A stretch of DNA of 7,537 nucleotides, from assembly GCA_017388605.1 (NCBI GenBank), contig JAFPIE010000185.1:1-7537 (forward strand), in the 5' to 3' direction. Position 1 is the first letter of the stretch. Every line of letters begins with the position of its first letter. The notes under the pieces were generated by a model. It was given only the letters and a program-made list of their open reading frames with translations, was not told the DNA's origin and ran no database searches. This DNA comes from Acholeplasmatales bacterium (GTDB lineage: Bacteria > Bacillota_I > Bacilli_A > Acholeplasmatales > Anaeroplasmataceae). Of this stretch, positions 3-5,948 are shown piece by piece. The position numbers were made by a program, and so were the translations under genes.

Positions 3-1826
3 ATGGCAGATATATTATCCATTAACAGCAATCTAAATTCCTTAGTTGTATATATTTCTAATATTGTATATTTGGCATCTAGAGCCTTTATTGCCTTAAG
101 CTATTGCTTATACATGATTTCTTTAGCAGATAATTGGCATAAATATAAAAATGGTCCATGGAGAATCCTATTATTATTTATTCCCTTTGTTATCGTAATT
201 GGACTTTTAATTTCAAATTATTGGACACATTGGGTATTTGATGTAAGTGATGGAAAATATATAAGAGGTATGCTCATCAATTATGGCATTATGTATATTT
301 GTACATTCGTTTATTCCTTAATTGCATTAATCTATTTCATCATTTATAGAGAATTCTTTAACAGGGCAAAGAAATTTGCCATTATTCAGGTATATCCTAT
401 ATTGATTATTGCCCTATTATTACAATCCATTCGTACGAATTGGTTAATTGAAATCTTCGCAACAGCATTTTCAAGCTTAATTTTAATGAATTTGCTTGAG
501 CGTCCTGAGGAAATCTATGAGCCTGAAATTGGACTTAAAAAATATACAGCCTTCCAAGAGGATTCCTATAAGGCTGCAAGAACGAAAAAGGTTATATCCT
601 TAGTTTTTGTTAAAATTGTGAATGATGTAAGATTAACTCCAAAAATGAATTATAATGAGCAAATTTCCTTAAGAAAAAGTATTGGTAATTTGTTAAAATC
701 GACAGCTAAGGATTTTTCACTTAAGGGGGATTTCTATTATTTAGGTGTAGGTGAATATGCTATCGCTTTAGCGGATTTAAAGAATGATAATTCTGAATCC
801 TATGCTATGACATTAAGAAGAAGATTAAATGTGCCTATTAAGGCAGATTTCGGTATTGTTGATTTATATTCCAATGTTGCCTTAGTGCATTGCCCAGAGG
901 ATATTAGTAATTCAGAAACAGCAATTAACTTCGTTGAAAAATTTGTTCATATTCCCGGTATTTTAGATACTGTATTAGATTTATCTAAAATTCCAAACAG
1001 AAGAGATTTTGAGATTAGTATGAATATGTCCTCTATTATCAAGAAGGGCTTAATGGATAAGAAATTTGATGTTTATTTCCAGCCTATTTATTCGGTTAAA
1101 GAGGAAAGCTTTACTCGTGCTGAGGCACTCTTAAGATTATATGATGATAAATATGGTGAAATTGAGCCTAAGGATTTCATTCCTGAGGCTGAAAGAAATG
1201 GTACGATTCATAAGATTGGTGATATTGTATTTGATAAGGTATGTGAATTTATTGCATCAAGTGATTTTAAAAAGCTAGGTCTTGAGAAAATAGAAATTAA
1301 TCTATCTACCGTACAGTGTATGCATGAGGATTTACCAATCCATATTATGGATGCAGTAAAGAGATATGGTATACACCCAAGTGCCATTAATTTAGAAATT
1401 ACGGAAAGTGCAGATGCATATTCTCGTAAGATGATGGAGGATAATATAAAGGTTCTAAAGGAATTAGGCTTTAGCTTCTCACTTGATGATTATGGTACAG
1501 GATATTCGAATTTAGATAATGTTACACAAATGCCTGTTGATGCAATTAAGCTAGATAGATCCTTAGCTATGAGTGATAATCCTGAGATTCAGGTAATGTT
1601 TTCTCATTCCTTAAAGCTCGTTAAGGATTTGAAGAAGCAGGTTGTTATTGAGGGTGTAGAAAATGAAGATATTTTAAATATGTTTGAAACATCCTTATGT
1701 GATTATATTCAAGGATATTATTTTTCAAAGCCTTTACCAAAGGAGGATTTCATAAATTTCCTTTATGAGAAGAAGGGCTTAGTAAAAGAAAAAGAGGTTA
1801 TAGAAAATGAGCAAATGGAGCAATAA
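3..1826 (+). CDS. Membrane-anchored EAL-domain cyclic-di-GMP phosphodiesterase with degenerate GGDEF
   Basis: Predicted to hydrolyse cyclic di-GMP at the inner face of the membrane. Residues about 13-165 hold roughly five hydrophobic segments (about 13-40, 53-71, 90-115, 125-142, 147-164), an apparent sensor region I cannot name. Residues about 195-325 resemble a GGDEF domain, but its signature is GVGEY (248-252), so cyclase activity is unlikely. The EAL domain spans about 350-587. It keeps E374-A375-L376, N433, E465, D495-D496 in DDYGTGYSN, K516, E550 in IEGVEN and Q570 in QGYYFSKPLP, which are the metal-binding and catalytic positions known for active EAL enzymes. A short charged tail follows. 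The ATG at base 3 is plausible because it sits just before the membrane region, but the ribosome binding site lies outside the window and the true start could be upstream. It is separated from the next gene by a terminator, so it is probably not part of the hyp operon. Confidence 0.88.
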   Translation: MADILSINSNLNSLVVYISNIVYLASRAFIALSYCLYMISLADNWHKYKNGPWRILLLFIPFVIVIGLLISNYWTHWVFDVSDGKYIRGMLINYGIMYICTFVYSLIALIYFIIYREFFNRAKKFAIIQVYPILIIALLLQSIRTNWLIEIFATAFSSLILMNLLERPEEIYEPEIGLKKYTAFQEDSYKAARTKKVISLVFVKIVNDVRLTPKMNYNEQISLRKSIGNLLKSTAKDFSLKGDFYYLGVGEYAIALADLKNDNSESYAMTLRRRLNVPIKADFGIVDLYSNVALVHCPEDISNSETAINFVEKFVHIPGILDTVLDLSKIPNRRDFEISMNMSSIIKKGLMDKKFDVYFQPIYSVKEESFTRAEALLRLYDDKYGEIEPKDFIPEAERNGTIHKIGDIVFDKVCEFIASSDFKKLGLEKIEINLSTVQCMHEDLPIHIMDAVKRYGIHPSAINLEITESADAYSRKMMEDNIKVLKELGFSFSLDDYGTGYSNLDNVTQMPVDAIKLDRSLAMSDNPEIQVMFSHSLKLVKDLKKQVVIEGVENEDILNMFETSLCDYIQGYYFSKPLPKEDFINFLYEKKGLVKEKEVIENEQMEQ

Positions 1827-1839
1827 TTTGCTCATTTTT
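1804..1839 (+). terminator. Intrinsic terminator overlapping the end of the EAL gene
   Basis: A perfect 13-base inverted repeat (arms 1804-1816 and 1826-1838, core ATGAGCAAAT/ATTTGCTCAT) encloses a 9-base loop and ends in TTTTT at 1835-1839. The left arm lies in the last codons and the stop codon is in the loop and at the first base of the right arm. The stem is AT-rich. GAGCAA occurs twice (1810-1815 and 1818-1823), so the right arm could also form a shorter 6-bp hairpin with the second copy. Confidence 0.75.
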
Positions 1840-1948: not shown

Positions 1949-2611
1949 ATGAATGACATAGATATATTACTTGTTAAGGAAAGTATTTTCGAGAACAACA
2001 ACGAAAGAGCATCCTTACTTAGAGATGAATTAAGAAATAAGAAATTATTCTTTGTAAATATGATGTCATCTCCTGGGGCAGGAAAGACAACTACGCTTAT
2101 TTCCTTAATAAAAAAATTAGAGGATCGATATCATATTGCCGTAATGGAAGCAGATATTGATTCGGATTTTGATGCCAAAAAAATAAAATCTGAAACTAAG
2201 GCAAGAGTAATTCAGCTACATACTGGTGGAATGTGCCACCTAGATTCAGAAATGACAAGACAGGGTATGGAAAAAATGGGTATTGAGGGCATTGATTTAT
2301 GCTTCTTAGAAAACATTGGAAACTTGGTTTGTCCTGCTGAATTTGATACTGGAGCACATCTAAATTTGGTTATATTATCCGTTCCTGAGGGAGATGATAA
2401 GCCAGTGAAATATCCACTTATGTTTCAGGTTTCTGATATTGTTGTTATCAATAAAATCGATACATTACCAATATTCGATTTTAATATAGAGGAATGTAGT
2501 AAGGTTATTTTAAAAAGAAATCCTAAGGCAAAAATTATTAAAGTTTCTGCACTTAAGGATGAAGGTATTGATATTTTAGCAAATGAGTTAGTAAGAAGAA
2601 TGGAAAAATAA
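1949..2611 (+). CDS. hypB: HypB, nickel-delivery GTPase (SIMIBI G3E family)
   Basis: HypB uses GTP hydrolysis to drive nickel transfer, with HypA, into [NiFe]-hydrogenase precursors or, in some bacteria, urease. The 220-residue protein has the P-loop SSPGAGKTT (40-48), an Asp-rich switch EADIDSDFDA (67-76), the metal-site motif CHLD with C96 and H97, ENIGNLVCPAEFD (121-133) with C128, the family-typical EGDDKPVKYP (147-156), and the guanine-specificity motif NKID (168-171). C96, H97 and C128 match the G-domain metal ligands known from E. coli HypB. The N-terminus lacks both the CxxCGC high-affinity nickel motif and a His-rich stretch. GAGGT at 1935-1939 lies 9 bases before the ATG and supports this start. 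It is first in an operon with an Fe-S flavoprotein and hypA, and no hydrogenase gene is visible. The switch motif departs slightly from the usual EGD..T..DA.RI form. Confidence 0.94.
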   Translation: MNDIDILLVKESIFENNNERASLLRDELRNKKLFFVNMMSSPGAGKTTTLISLIKKLEDRYHIAVMEADIDSDFDAKKIKSETKARVIQLHTGGMCHLDSEMTRQGMEKMGIEGIDLCFLENIGNLVCPAEFDTGAHLNLVILSVPEGDDKPVKYPLMFQVSDIVVINKIDTLPIFDFNIEECSKVILKRNPKAKIIKVSALKDEGIDILANELVRRMEK

Positions 2612-2612
2612 A

Positions 2613-2625
2613 AGGAGAAAAGGGG
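2613..2625 (+). promoter_or_regulatory. Tandem Shine-Dalgarno sequences before the oxidoreductase
   Basis: AGGAG (2613-2617) and AGGGG (2621-2625) lie in the 21-base gap between hypB and the next ATG at 2633. AGGGG has the better spacing (7 bases), while AGGAG is 15 bases away. Both favour the 2633 start. Confidence 0.6.
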
Positions 2626-2632
2626 AAAATTT

Positions 2633-5578
2633 ATGGGCAAAAAAGTAGGAAAGTATGATGTAGTACCAACCTATCCTGGTGCGAGGAGCAAATTCGAAGG
2701 AGAAAAGGCACCAAGAGAAAAGGTTATTAAGCTTGGTAAAAAAATTACAGATGTATTAGACCATAAGCTTCATGGAGTTACTTCAAATGATCCAGAGTAT
2801 TGGGGTCTTGCTGAAATTTTAAGTGATGAAATGTGCGATATAGCACTTAAAATGAAAATAAGAAAGCCTTATACATTCGAGGAAATGAAAAAGCTATGTC
2901 CAGATAATGCTAAGGATCCAGAGCATTTTCAAAAGGTTTTAGATGAAATGGCATATATTGGACTATTAGAGCTCGATTGGGGCTACCATTTTGATCATAA
3001 TGGTAGAACAGCTCCAATGGATAAGGATGTAAGATATATCCTAACCTTATTCGTTCCAGGCTCTGCTGAAATGTTTAATATGGAAGAGACTCCAGATTGT
3101 AAAAATCCAAGACTTGAGGAGCACCCTGCAGTAGGTAATTTCTTTGAAAGAATGACCTATATTCCACTTGCAGGTATTACCCAAATGGTACCTGAGGGTG
3201 GTTCTGGTGTTGGTATGCATGTCATTCCAGTAGAGGAAGCTATTTCTATGAATAATGAGGCCTTAGATATTGAAAAGCTATCCTATTGGCTAAAGAAATA
3301 CGATGGTGAAATTGGTGTTGGACAGTGCTCCTGTAGATCATCAAGAAGGCTTTTAGGTACAGAAGAGGACCCACAGGGCTGTGCAGATGATGAATGGGGC
3401 TGGTGTATTGGTATTGGTGATTTCGCAAGATATTGTAGAGAAACTGGTAAGGGTCACCCTATTACTGCAGATGAGGCTATTGCTATATTAAAGAAGGCAG
3501 AGGAGCAGGGCTTCGTTCACCAAATTACAAATATCGATGGTGAGAATAAGATCTTTGGTATTTGTAACTGTAATGTAAATATTTGTAATGCGTTAAGAAC
3601 ATCTCAGCTATTTAACACACCAAATTTATCTAGAAGTGCATATACAGCACAAGTTACAAAGGAAAACTGTGTAGCCTGTGGTAGATGTGTTGAATATTGT
3701 CCTGCAGGTGCAGTTAAGCTTGGTCAAAAGCTATGCACGAAGCAAGGTGAAATTGTATATCCACGTCATGAGCTTCCAGATTGGAATAAATGGGGTACAG
3801 ATAAGTGGGACCCAGACTATAGAGACCATAACAGAATCAATTGTTATGACACAGGTACTGCACCTTGTAAGACAGCATGTCCTGCACATATTGCAATTCA
3901 AGGCTATTTAAAGATGGCCGCTCAGGGAAGATACGAGGATGCCCTTGCCTTAATTAAGAAGGAAAATCCATTCCCTGCAGTTTGTGGTAGAATTTGTAAT
4001 AAGCGCTGTGAGGCTGCATGTACTAGAGGTACTGTAGATGAGGCTATCGCTATTGATGCAGTAAAGAAATTTATTGCAGAAAGAGATTTACATGCAAAGA
4101 CACGCTATGTACCTAAGGTTGAAATGGCAGTATCTCCTGCAAGACAGATTAAAATCGATCATTGGGAACAAAAGATTGCGATTATCGGTGCTGGTCCTGC
4201 GGGCTTATCCTGTGCATATTATTTAGCAATTAAGGGCTATAAGCCAGTTGTATTTGAAAAGAACGAGAAGCCAGGTGGAATGATGCTTTATGGTATTCCA
4301 TCCTATAAGCTTGAAAAGGATGTAATAGAAGCAGAAATTGATATCATTCGTGAGCTTGGCGTTGAAATAAGATGTGGCGTTGAGGTTGGTAAGGATGTTA
4401 CTATTGAGGAGTTAAGAAATCAAGGCTTCCAGGCCTTCTATTTAGCTATTGGTTGCCAGGGTGGTAACCTACCTGGAATTGTAGGTGAGGATGCAAAGGG
4501 CGTTGAAATCGCAGTTGATTTCTTACATAAGGCTACAGAGGATAACACAACTAAGTGGACTGAGGATGTCGTAGTTGTTGGTGGTGGTAATGTTGCGGTT
4601 GACTGCGCAAGAACCGCTAAGAGATTTACCTCTGGTAAGGTAACTATGCTATCCCTAGAGGAAAGAGATGTAATGCCTGCATCTAAGGATGAAATTGAAG
4701 AAACCCTAGAGGATGGTATTGAAATCTTAAATGCTTGGGGTCCTAAGGAAATTATTAAGGATAAGGATGGTAATGTATCCTCTATTATCTTTAAGAAGTG
4801 TACACAAACGATCGACCCTAAGACTAAAGCATTTAGTCCTTTATATAATGAAAATGAAACCATCGAAATTAAGTGTAAGCATGTTATCTTTGCGATAGGT
4901 CAAAGAGTTATCTATGGCGATCTATTAAAGGGCACTAAGGTTGAATTTGGTAGAGGCAATAGACCTATTGCTGATCCACTTACATATCAAACTAAGGAAA
5001 AGGATATCTTCGTTGGTGGAGATGTTTATACAGGACCTAAGTTTGTTATTGATGCTATCGCTCAGGGTAAGAATGCAAGTGAATCCTTACATAGATTCGT
5101 ACATAAGGGTGCATCCTTAACTATTGGTAGAAATAGAAGAGATTTCATCGAGCTTGATAAGGAAAATATCGTTTTAGGTGAATATGATACTGCAAAGCGT
5201 CAGGTTGCAAGCCAATCTAAGGATTATAAGCCATTATCCTTCAAGGATTATTCTGGTACATTAACAGAAGAGCAGGTAAAGATAGAAACTGCTAGATGCT
5301 TAGGCTGTGGTGCATCTATTGTAGACCCTAATAAGTGTATTGGCTGTGGTGTTTGTACAACAAAATGTGAATTTGATGCTATCCATTTAGTAAGAGATCA
5401 TCCACATGCATCCGATATGAGATCTACAGATGAAAAATTCAAATATATCCTACCTTATGCAGCAAAGCGTGCATTTAAGATTCTATTTAAGGTAAAGCCT
5501 GAATCTCAAAAGAAATATGAGAAGGAATATAAGGCATACCAAAAGAGAGTTAATGATGCAAAGAAGGATGCTAGATAA
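2633..5578 (+). CDS. Multi-[4Fe-4S] FAD/NAD(P)H oxidoreductase, GltD/NfnB-like, with N-terminal Cys-rich domain
   Basis: A cytosolic redox enzyme expected to pass electrons between NAD(P)H, FAD and several iron-sulfur clusters; the physiological acceptor is unknown. Residues 1-230 contain a winged-helix-like stretch (about 60-120). A Cys-rich block follows with C232-x-C234-R, C250, C258 and IC311-N-C313 to C318. This pattern recalls an uncharacterised anaerobe Fe-S family with CxCR and ICNCC motifs. Next is a single ferredoxin motif (C346, C349, C352, C356-P). The GltD-type Fe-S region has C404, C412, C416-P and C451, C455, C459, C463. The FAD Rossmann motif is GAGPAG (519-524), the NAD(P) motif GGGNVA (650-655), and the second FAD motif GGD (795-797). 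The C-terminus adds C889, C892 and a [4Fe-4S] motif at C902, C905, C908, C912. At 981 residues it is about twice the length of GltD (near 470), and no glutamate synthase large subunit is adjacent. It lies between hypB and hypA, overlapping hypA by one base. Cofactors are well supported; the substrate is not. Confidence 0.9.
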   Translation: MGKKVGKYDVVPTYPGARSKFEGEKAPREKVIKLGKKITDVLDHKLHGVTSNDPEYWGLAEILSDEMCDIALKMKIRKPYTFEEMKKLCPDNAKDPEHFQKVLDEMAYIGLLELDWGYHFDHNGRTAPMDKDVRYILTLFVPGSAEMFNMEETPDCKNPRLEEHPAVGNFFERMTYIPLAGITQMVPEGGSGVGMHVIPVEEAISMNNEALDIEKLSYWLKKYDGEIGVGQCSCRSSRRLLGTEEDPQGCADDEWGWCIGIGDFARYCRETGKGHPITADEAIAILKKAEEQGFVHQITNIDGENKIFGICNCNVNICNALRTSQLFNTPNLSRSAYTAQVTKENCVACGRCVEYCPAGAVKLGQKLCTKQGEIVYPRHELPDWNKWGTDKWDPDYRDHNRINCYDTGTAPCKTACPAHIAIQGYLKMAAQGRYEDALALIKKENPFPAVCGRICNKRCEAACTRGTVDEAIAIDAVKKFIAERDLHAKTRYVPKVEMAVSPARQIKIDHWEQKIAIIGAGPAGLSCAYYLAIKGYKPVVFEKNEKPGGMMLYGIPSYKLEKDVIEAEIDIIRELGVEIRCGVEVGKDVTIEELRNQGFQAFYLAIGCQGGNLPGIVGEDAKGVEIAVDFLHKATEDNTTKWTEDVVVVGGGNVAVDCARTAKRFTSGKVTMLSLEERDVMPASKDEIEETLEDGIEILNAWGPKEIIKDKDGNVSSIIFKKCTQTIDPKTKAFSPLYNENETIEIKCKHVIFAIGQRVIYGDLLKGTKVEFGRGNRPIADPLTYQTKEKDIFVGGDVYTGPKFVIDAIAQGKNASESLHRFVHKGASLTIGRNRRDFIELDKENIVLGEYDTAKRQVASQSKDYKPLSFKDYSGTLTEEQVKIETARCLGCGASIVDPNKCIGCGVCTTKCEFDAIHLVRDHPHASDMRSTDEKFKYILPYAAKRAFKILFKVKPESQKKYEKEYKAYQKRVNDAKKDAR
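5564..5568 (+). promoter_or_regulatory. Shine-Dalgarno for hypA inside the oxidoreductase gene
   Basis: AAGGA lies 9 bases upstream of the hypA ATG at 5578 and within the last codons of the upstream gene. With the TAATG stop/start overlap this suggests coupled translation. It also supports the start that gives the essential Met-His-Glu N-terminus. Confidence 0.6.
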
Positions 5579-5928
5579 TGCATGAGCTTGGCGTTACCTT
5601 TACAGTAATTAAAAGAGTCGAAGAGGTTGCAAAGGAAAACAATGTGAAGCATGTTTCTAAGGTAACCTTGTCCTTAGGTGAGGTTTCAACCGTAATCAAG
5701 GAGCAATTAATTGACTGCTGGAATTGGGCTGTAAAAAATAAATCAGAAATCTTATATGGTGCTACCCTAGATGTAGAACAAATCCCTGCAATTACCTATT
5801 GTGAGGATTGTAAGGGGGAATATAGTACCGTAAAATATGGCAAGACCTGTCCTTATTGTAATTCAAAGAATACCTGGCTTAAGCAAGGCAATGAATTCAT
5901 TATAAAGGATGTAACGGTCGATGAATAA
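5578..5928 (+). CDS. hypA: HypA, nickel/zinc metallochaperone
   Basis: HypA binds Ni(II) through its N-terminal Met-His motif and a structural zinc through two CxxC pairs, and works with HypB in nickel insertion. This 116-residue protein starts MHE (His2 and Glu3 kept) and has the zinc site C75-x2-C78 and C91-PY-C94, which is the normal family length and architecture. Between them, GEVSTVIKEQLIDCWNWA (34-51) replaces the more usual hydrogenase-linked G.LSGV.PE.L.FAFE pattern, so it may belong to a distinct HypA subtype. The start is fixed by the MHE motif. The first base of its ATG is the last base of the oxidoreductase stop (TAATG). It is the last gene of the operon, followed at once by a terminator. 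The client enzyme is not identifiable from the window; a paired function with hypB is very likely. Confidence 0.93.
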   Translation: MHELGVTFTVIKRVEEVAKENNVKHVSKVTLSLGEVSTVIKEQLIDCWNWAVKNKSEILYGATLDVEQIPAITYCEDCKGEYSTVKYGKTCPYCNSKNTWLKQGNEFIIKDVTVDE

Positions 5929-5948
5929 GCACTCGTTTGAGTGCTTTT
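5927..5948 (+). terminator. Intrinsic terminator of the hyp operon
   Basis: AAGCACTC (5927-5934), loop GTTT, GAGTGCTT (5939-5946), then a T-rich tail (TTTT from 5945, continuing T-rich to about 5959). The 8-bp perfect stem begins inside the hypA stop codon. Confidence 0.88.

Follow-up and report, generated by a model that had tools for sequence, protein, structure and literature searches.

An apparently dedicated HypA/HypB pair beside an IsrA-like flavoprotein: a putative metal-dependent ene-reductase unit

The closest described system is that of IsrA, a putative isoprene reductase of "clade 9" from Acetobacterium wieringae ISORED-2 (Kronen et al. 2023, PMC10134865). According to the part of that paper available, the isr operon combines isoprene-raised IsrA with two hypA genes, hypB and a ferredoxin gene, and the ISORED-2 genome has neither hypCDEF nor a NiFe hydrogenase (PMC10134865). 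Among 988 IsrA homologues, HypA was found near 73%, HypB near 56%, DUF5692 near 40% and TetR near 21%, and Tenericutes are named among the hosts of the family (PMC10134865). It was proposed that the six-cysteine "cluster V" of IsrA, which has two CxC motifs, may bind nickel where a substrate tunnel ends, and the site was likened to cluster A of ACS or to P-type/double-cubane clusters (PMC10134865). The preliminary description of the present DNA had suggested a possible hydrogenase-independent redox system based on nickel or another metal. This idea fits our results but is not new, having been put forward for the IsrA family in the same paper (PMC10134865).

The window, by which we mean the entire analysed stretch of 7,537 nt, carries hypB, a gene for a large flavoprotein and hypA in one tight unit (Table 1). 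A 21-nt gap separates hypB from the flavoprotein gene, and the latter overlaps hypA by 1 nt (base 5578); the coordinates, gap and overlap given in the preliminary description were all correct. Terminators had also been claimed for both sides of the unit. Terminator-like hairpins do occur at both positions, but the scan returned 7 sites in the window against 4.6 +/- 2.0 in shuffled sequences, and such sites are weak evidence on their own. The remaining coding frames are those of an EAL-domain protein and of a frame without a Pfam match that runs to the end of the window. In agreement with the preliminary description, ORF and Pfam analysis of the 7,537 nt revealed no hydrogenase, hypC-F, urease or lar (lactate racemase) gene. 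The window likewise held no frame for an NfnA small subunit near the flavoprotein gene, no fatty-acid genes, including an isomerase, and no Rfam match at the gathering threshold.

Table 1 Coordinates of features in the window and at related loci (locus named where outside the window)
Feature	Position	Strand	Remarks
hypB	1949..2611	+	Ni-chaperone-type GTPase, 220 aa; ORF list, profile search
IsrA-like FAD/NAD(P) Fe-S oxidoreductase (flavoprotein)	2633..5578	+	981 aa
Six invariant cysteines (C232, C234, C258, C311, C313, C318)	3326..3586	+	two CxC motifs
First 4Fe-4S cysteine motif (Fer4), C346-C356	3668..3700	+	
Fer4_20 / PF14691, residues 404-486	3842..4090	+	dihydropyrimidine dehydrogenase domain II, 4Fe-4S
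Pyr_redox_2 / PF07992, residues 514-812	4172..5068	+	FAD and NAD(P) binding
C-terminal 4Fe-4S motif(s), C889-C912	5297..5368	+	
hypA	5578..5928	+	116 aa
Intrinsic-terminator-like hairpin closing the hypB-flavoprotein-hypA unit	5927..5946	+	terminator scan
Terminator-like hairpin 3' of the EAL gene	1818..1833	+	terminator scan; parts the EAL gene from hypB
EAL-domain gene upstream of hypB	window 3-1826; L001 7005-8975; L109 4616-6604; L112 11688-13613		
Long frame after hypA	window ~5937/6006-7535; L001 13107-14915; L109 11820-13736		
Stand-alone six-cysteine Fe-S proteins near hypA/hypB	L089 (G156) 7377-9577; L090 (G125) 7531-13325; L091 (G116) 2062-3408 and 7326-9124		
FecCD-type transporter genes	L110 11336-14752; L112 13776-17323; L114 4157-7742		

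The nearest relative of the locus among the genomes scanned is L001, from the MAG of an uncultured Anaeroplasma sp. (genome G001). Its flavoprotein is 97% and its HypB 93% identical to those of the window, on which basis G001 is called the nearest relative and a species different from the source of the window. Four loci of the Anaeroplasma order carry an EAL-domain (c-di-GMP phosphodiesterase-like) gene directly 5' of hypB, and its own terminator in the window suggests that this arrangement reflects synteny rather than an operon. The long frame 3' of hypA, which looks TPR-like by eye and has no Pfam match, is kept in L001 and L109. Immediately 5' of the EAL gene, the same two loci encode a protein that combines flavodoxin with ferredoxin domains (L001 6010-6900; L109 3606-4472) and that could be an electron donor.

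Pfam searches of the flavoprotein gave Fer4-type motif matches at residues 339-360 and 896-917 on either side of the domains in Table 1, and residues ~400-830 resemble GltD, NfnB and dihydropyrimidine dehydrogenase (DPD). The N-terminal ~335 residues had no Pfam match and, the ferredoxin motif apart, matched no solved chain. Invariant positions are dense in the N-terminal region (e.g. residues 189-366), and the codons of the six cysteines, the counterpart of the proposed cluster V metal site (PMC10134865), fall in its Pfam-unmatched part. These cysteines are invariant in all 31 full-length relatives and in all 13 stand-alone homologues, whose frames are some 230 to 480 residues long; H296 is present in 31/31 and 7/13, respectively.

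HypA and HypB accompany this protein across genomes. Within ~4 kb of 31 distinct full-length flavoproteins, the window's included, HypA was found for 29 and HypB for 25. Locus L088 lacks both, L081 has HypB only, and L004, L077, L079, L080 and L082 have HypA only; these absences are true at ~4 kb and are not artefacts of contig ends. Since it is conserved among the 31 full-length relatives, the linkage exceeds chance. DUF5692 lies within ~4 kb of 9/31 flavoproteins, with a divergent DUF5692 relative near 4 more. A scan of species genomes gave hypA, hypB or both adjoining the flavoprotein at 11/11 loci, three of which come from records whose titles name cecum, feces or colon samples. Of 249 genomes drawn evenly from the phylum of the Lachnospiraceae genome G010, HypA exceeded the cut-off in at least 103 and the full-length flavoprotein occurred in at least 8 (14 copies, 12 with HypA nearby); these profile counts are lower bounds, and for the flavoprotein the best 8 candidates were scored in most genomes. 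The order of G001 was sampled with 150 genomes: HypA was found in 8 and the N-terminal profile of the flavoprotein in 7, all 7 with HypA (7/1/0/142; Fisher p 2.7e-11, kinship ignored). In the eighth HypA genome, G340, a flavoprotein C-terminus stands immediately before hypA at the start of a contig. Every HypA of this order sample (8/8) abuts the flavoprotein, HypA was found nowhere else, and HypD was found in none of the eight genomes. Chance adjacency of HypA/HypB and the flavoprotein was rejected on the order sample together with the survey of 31 relatives. At locus L009, two HypB genes lie side by side (13229-14628).

Both small proteins are recognizable family members. HypB exceeded the TIGR00073 cut-off (214.7 bits vs 121.2). 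HypA exceeded that of PF01155 (103.1 vs 28.9) and fell below that of TIGR00100 (79.3 vs 88.1), by which it would be a somewhat divergent member of its family. The metal-site residues C96, H97 and C128 of the window's HypB are intact, as are H2, E3 and the zinc cysteines C75, C78, C91 and C94 (two CxxC motifs) of its HypA. Among flavoprotein-linked HypB sequences, C96 and H97 are each kept in 25/26 rows and C128 in 26/26, and in flavoprotein-linked HypA H2, E3 and the four cysteines are kept in 29/29. An additional HypB histidine, H91, occurs in 22/26 flavoprotein-linked rows, 1/3 stand-alone rows and 0/21 other rows. A 100/100 branch of the HypB tree (49 proteins) separates the 28 that come from loci of the flavoprotein or of a stand-alone homologue from the 21 of flavoprotein-free genomes, and both sides include long branches. 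To judge from these sequences, the HypA/HypB beside the flavoprotein form a dedicated pair.

A pair of this kind could have been left over from hydrogenase maturation, and carrier genomes were searched for HypD and the NiFe large subunit. Each was matched in 1/18 flavoprotein genomes, both times in G142 (NiFe E 2.3e-13). In contrast, 52 HypA genomes without the flavoprotein had HypD in 50 and a NiFe-family match in 51 (Fisher p 3.8e-13 for the HypD contrast, kinship ignored). The 18 genomes are G001-G011, picked by similarity to the window's protein, and seven of the 249-genome sample; the 52 are the first in list order of the HypA-positive, flavoprotein-free genomes of the draw. The large-subunit search covered the 18 genomes, and seven further genomes of the order were searched for HypD. 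Many of the genomes are MAGs of unstated completeness, and absences here mean "not found". A hydrogenase left-over was rejected, HypD and the NiFe large subunit not having been found in 17/18 flavoprotein genomes.

Other nickel enzymes were also sought. The nearest genome, G001 (a MAG), was searched for LarA, urease, CODH-family proteins, HypD and the NiFe-hydrogenase large subunit, and none of these was found. HypD, Prismane/CODH, Lar_N and urease alpha were found in 0/8 of the order genomes with HypA, and G002 was likewise without HypD, Prismane, Lar_N and urease alpha. Within the 25 flavoprotein genomes as a whole, a Prismane-family protein (CODH or hydroxylamine reductase) was found in 11 and Lar_N over its cut-off in 11, and many of these genomes may therefore encode known nickel enzymes. 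Urease alpha was found in 0/25; the one match among 27 genomes searched was weak (G156, 27.7 bits). The Prismane-family and Lar_N proteins of many trio-bearing Clostridia would suit a scenario in which the client of HypA/HypB is a nickel enzyme from another part of the genome and chance or regulation accounts for their place beside the flavoprotein. This scenario is disfavoured, and we regard it as highly improbable, since the pairing is kept over distant lineages and nine genomes (G001, G002 and seven more of the Anaeroplasma order) have HypA beside the flavoprotein with none of the four markers found. LarA, CODH and urease were rejected as clients on the same nine genomes. Co-occurrence gives good support to the flavoprotein, as opposed to a hydrogenase, being the client of HypA/HypB, and the flavoprotein is very probably what they serve. 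The preliminary description had named it, or a protein it reduces, as the client of the pair for nickel or another metal. The flavoprotein part of that claim stands by co-occurrence (8/8 HypA of the order sample abutting it; HypD in 1/18 vs 50/52 genomes), and the nickel part is something we infer.

Ten genomes of the 249-genome draw have stand-alone homologues only, with HypD in 5 and a NiFe-family match in 7, and HypA lies near the homologue in only three of them (G116, G125 and G156). In G156, hypA and hypB adjoin the homologue and HypD was not found. In G125, the homologue, two other genes, hypA-hypB and then a gene for a NicO nickel permease form one gene run; HypD was not found there, yet a NiFe-family match was (E 5.8e-8). 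On the strength of G125 and G156, both without HypD, a HypAB-linked family of smaller six-cysteine proteins seems to exist. The element that goes with HypAB at these loci is the six-cysteine domain and not the NfnB-like half.

Transporter genes adjoin some of the full-length loci. Pfam confirmed a FecCD-type permease and binding protein near the trio at L110 and L114, and at L112 the binding protein, which has a permease-like frame beside it. FmdE is encoded beside the transporter in L110 and a small SAM methyltransferase in L112 and L114; the latter also adjoins the trio in L086 and L093. These transporter and FmdE/SAM methyltransferase genes possibly supply metal to the trio, and candidate cargoes of the FecCD-type transporters include iron and cobalamin besides nickel.

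The identity of the metal bears on a different account, in which HypA/HypB serve the flavoprotein with another metal or by Fe-S remodelling and the N-terminal site is purely Fe-S, for instance double-cubane-like. The published likeness of the site to ACS cluster A or to P-type/double-cubane clusters (PMC10134865) would agree with this, as would the separate branch of HypB with its extra H91, which might alter metal choice. Against another metal, the nickel-binding residues are kept in HypB (25/26, 25/26 and 26/26) and in HypA (29/29), and a NicO nickel permease is encoded at the stand-alone locus of G125. We consider this account improbable and favour nickel.

The neighbours of some relatives point to a substrate. 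At eight loci, a homologue of PDB 2b9w is encoded in the neighbourhood of the flavoprotein (two were compared with the PDB and the rest assigned by likeness). The PDB title of 2b9w is "putative aminooxidase", and we take the entry to be the P. acnes polyunsaturated fatty acid isomerase. The name and role of that enzyme of Liavonchanka et al. 2006 are given in the available part of a 2026 review (PMC13365329). An isomerase profile matched 7/25 flavoprotein genomes, 0/52 HypA genomes without the flavoprotein and 0/2 stand-alone genomes (Fisher p 2.0e-4, kinship ignored). With the best 23 candidates or fewer scored per genome, copies numbered at least nine, of which eight lie in a flavoprotein neighbourhood in six genomes (G010, G041, G063 x2, G100 x2, G136 and G227) and the ninth, in G380, is on another contig than the flavoprotein. 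Seven of the eight are within ~4 kb; in L010 the isomerase gene lies ~5 kb upstream, as part of a single gene run. Five loci have the isomerase on the same strand as the flavoprotein and three, all within ~4 kb, are divergent. The ten-gene run of L010 (G010) encodes, in order, the isomerase, a CrtI-like oxidase (labelled from weak PDB matches), a flavin reductase-like protein (labelled by likeness to an L093 protein), an AMP-binding ligase, a carrier protein, an acyl-ACP thioesterase, two flavoproteins, HypA and HypB. The two flavoprotein genes form a tandem pair (6336-12058), and one of their products groups with the window's in a 15-row set (support 100/99).

The isomerase neighbours and the acyl-gene run of L010 suggest conjugated acyl chains as the substrate in part of the family, some members of which may be conjugated-fatty-acid reductases. 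The sequences suggest this reading for some relatives and do not extend it to Anaeroplasma itself: a fatty-acid-gene neighbourhood is present at L010 and in five other genomes and absent from the window, an isomerase of the 2b9w type was not found in G001, and 18/25 flavoprotein genomes were without one. The available text of PMC10134865 describes oleate hydratase as a neighbour in two Acetobacterium; "linole" and "isomerase" are absent from it and "oleate" occurs once. No paper among the matches listed in our literature searches gave the IsrA-like family a role in fatty-acid hydrogenation, and the link of isomerase and acyl genes to the family, which we did not find in print, would add to the published picture.

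That only 7/25 flavoprotein genomes have an isomerase would also be expected if the fatty-acid link were incidental and the flavoprotein an electron hub, i.e. an Nfn-/GltD-like transhydrogenase or a ferredoxin:NAD(P) reductase, and residues ~400-830 do resemble the electron-transfer modules of GltD, NfnB and DPD. Against this, the six-cysteine N-terminus is rich in invariant positions and has no solved match apart from the ferredoxin motif, and the window has no Nfn small subunit next door. We give the hub little credence.

We favour the reading that the HypAB-flavoprotein unit encodes an anaerobic ene-reductase of the IsrA type, with nickel at its six-cysteine site, together with a pair of proteins dedicated to inserting the metal; to this reading we assign a probability of about 0.6. 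Electrons would pass from NAD(P)H to FAD, for which nested domains are read from the sequence, and then along the conserved 4Fe-4S clusters to the six-cysteine N-terminal site; the cysteines of this path are seen and its course is predicted. HypB, a GTPase, and HypA would insert a metal, most likely Ni(II), into this site, as suggested by co-occurrence and the intact metal-binding residues, and the pair would not be a hydrogenase remnant. An organic compound would act as electron acceptor and have a C=C bond, unfunctionalised and probably conjugated, reduced at this site, as the isr operon and the fatty-acid genes beside relatives suggest. For some relatives the most likely acceptor would be the product of the neighbouring isomerase, a polyunsaturated fatty acid or acyl chain with conjugated double bonds. 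Nickel and its placement, the electron path, C=C reduction and the substrate are all what we infer from sequence comparison. A wider view, in which the family is a nickel-dependent C=C-hydrogenating class of strict anaerobes and the window's branch includes conjugated-PUFA reductases that follow a P. acnes-type isomerase, act on free or carrier-bound acyl chains and contribute to gut biohydrogenation, is tentative and, in our judgement, rather doubtful.

If nickel does sit at the six-cysteine site, this would be a nickel enzyme class beyond the classical list, with dedicated HypAB maturation, in organisms where no hydrogenase is found. It would account for the hypA/hypB annotations in hydrogenase-free Clostridia and relatives of Anaeroplasma. 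The isomerase and acyl-ACP neighbours offer a concrete substrate guess for the enzymology of gut fatty-acid hydrogenation.

Among known systems, rumen and gut biohydrogenation combines linoleate isomerase with conjugated linoleic acid (CLA) reductase, for which a B. fibrisolvens gene was reportedly described in 2007. Some relatives resemble it in having the 2b9w homologue nearby, whereas the window and G001 have no isomerase. Flavoprotein residues ~400-830 are like NfnB, GltD and the N-terminal module of dihydropyrimidine dehydrogenase, from which the protein differs by its extra ~335-residue six-cysteine N-terminus and C-terminal ferredoxin motifs and, in the case of Nfn, by having no small-subunit partner in the window. 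Compared with [NiFe]-hydrogenase maturation, HypA and HypB agree in family and metal-site residues; they differ in the separate 100/100 branch of HypB and in that HypD and the large subunit were not found in 17/18 flavoprotein genomes. Relative to IsrA and its operon, as far as the available part of the published description goes (PMC10134865), the window has the order hypB-isrA-hypA, a single hypA, no partner ferredoxin and a longer flavoprotein (981 aa vs 901). Both proteins (IsrA being about 900 aa) combine an FAD/NAD(P) domain with DPD domain II, carry ferredoxin-type motifs at either end and have six N-terminal cysteines with two CxC motifs, and in both cases hypA and hypB are close by. 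By this architecture, with IsrA (VUZ27132.1) compared by description, the window's flavoprotein fits membership of IsrA clade 9.
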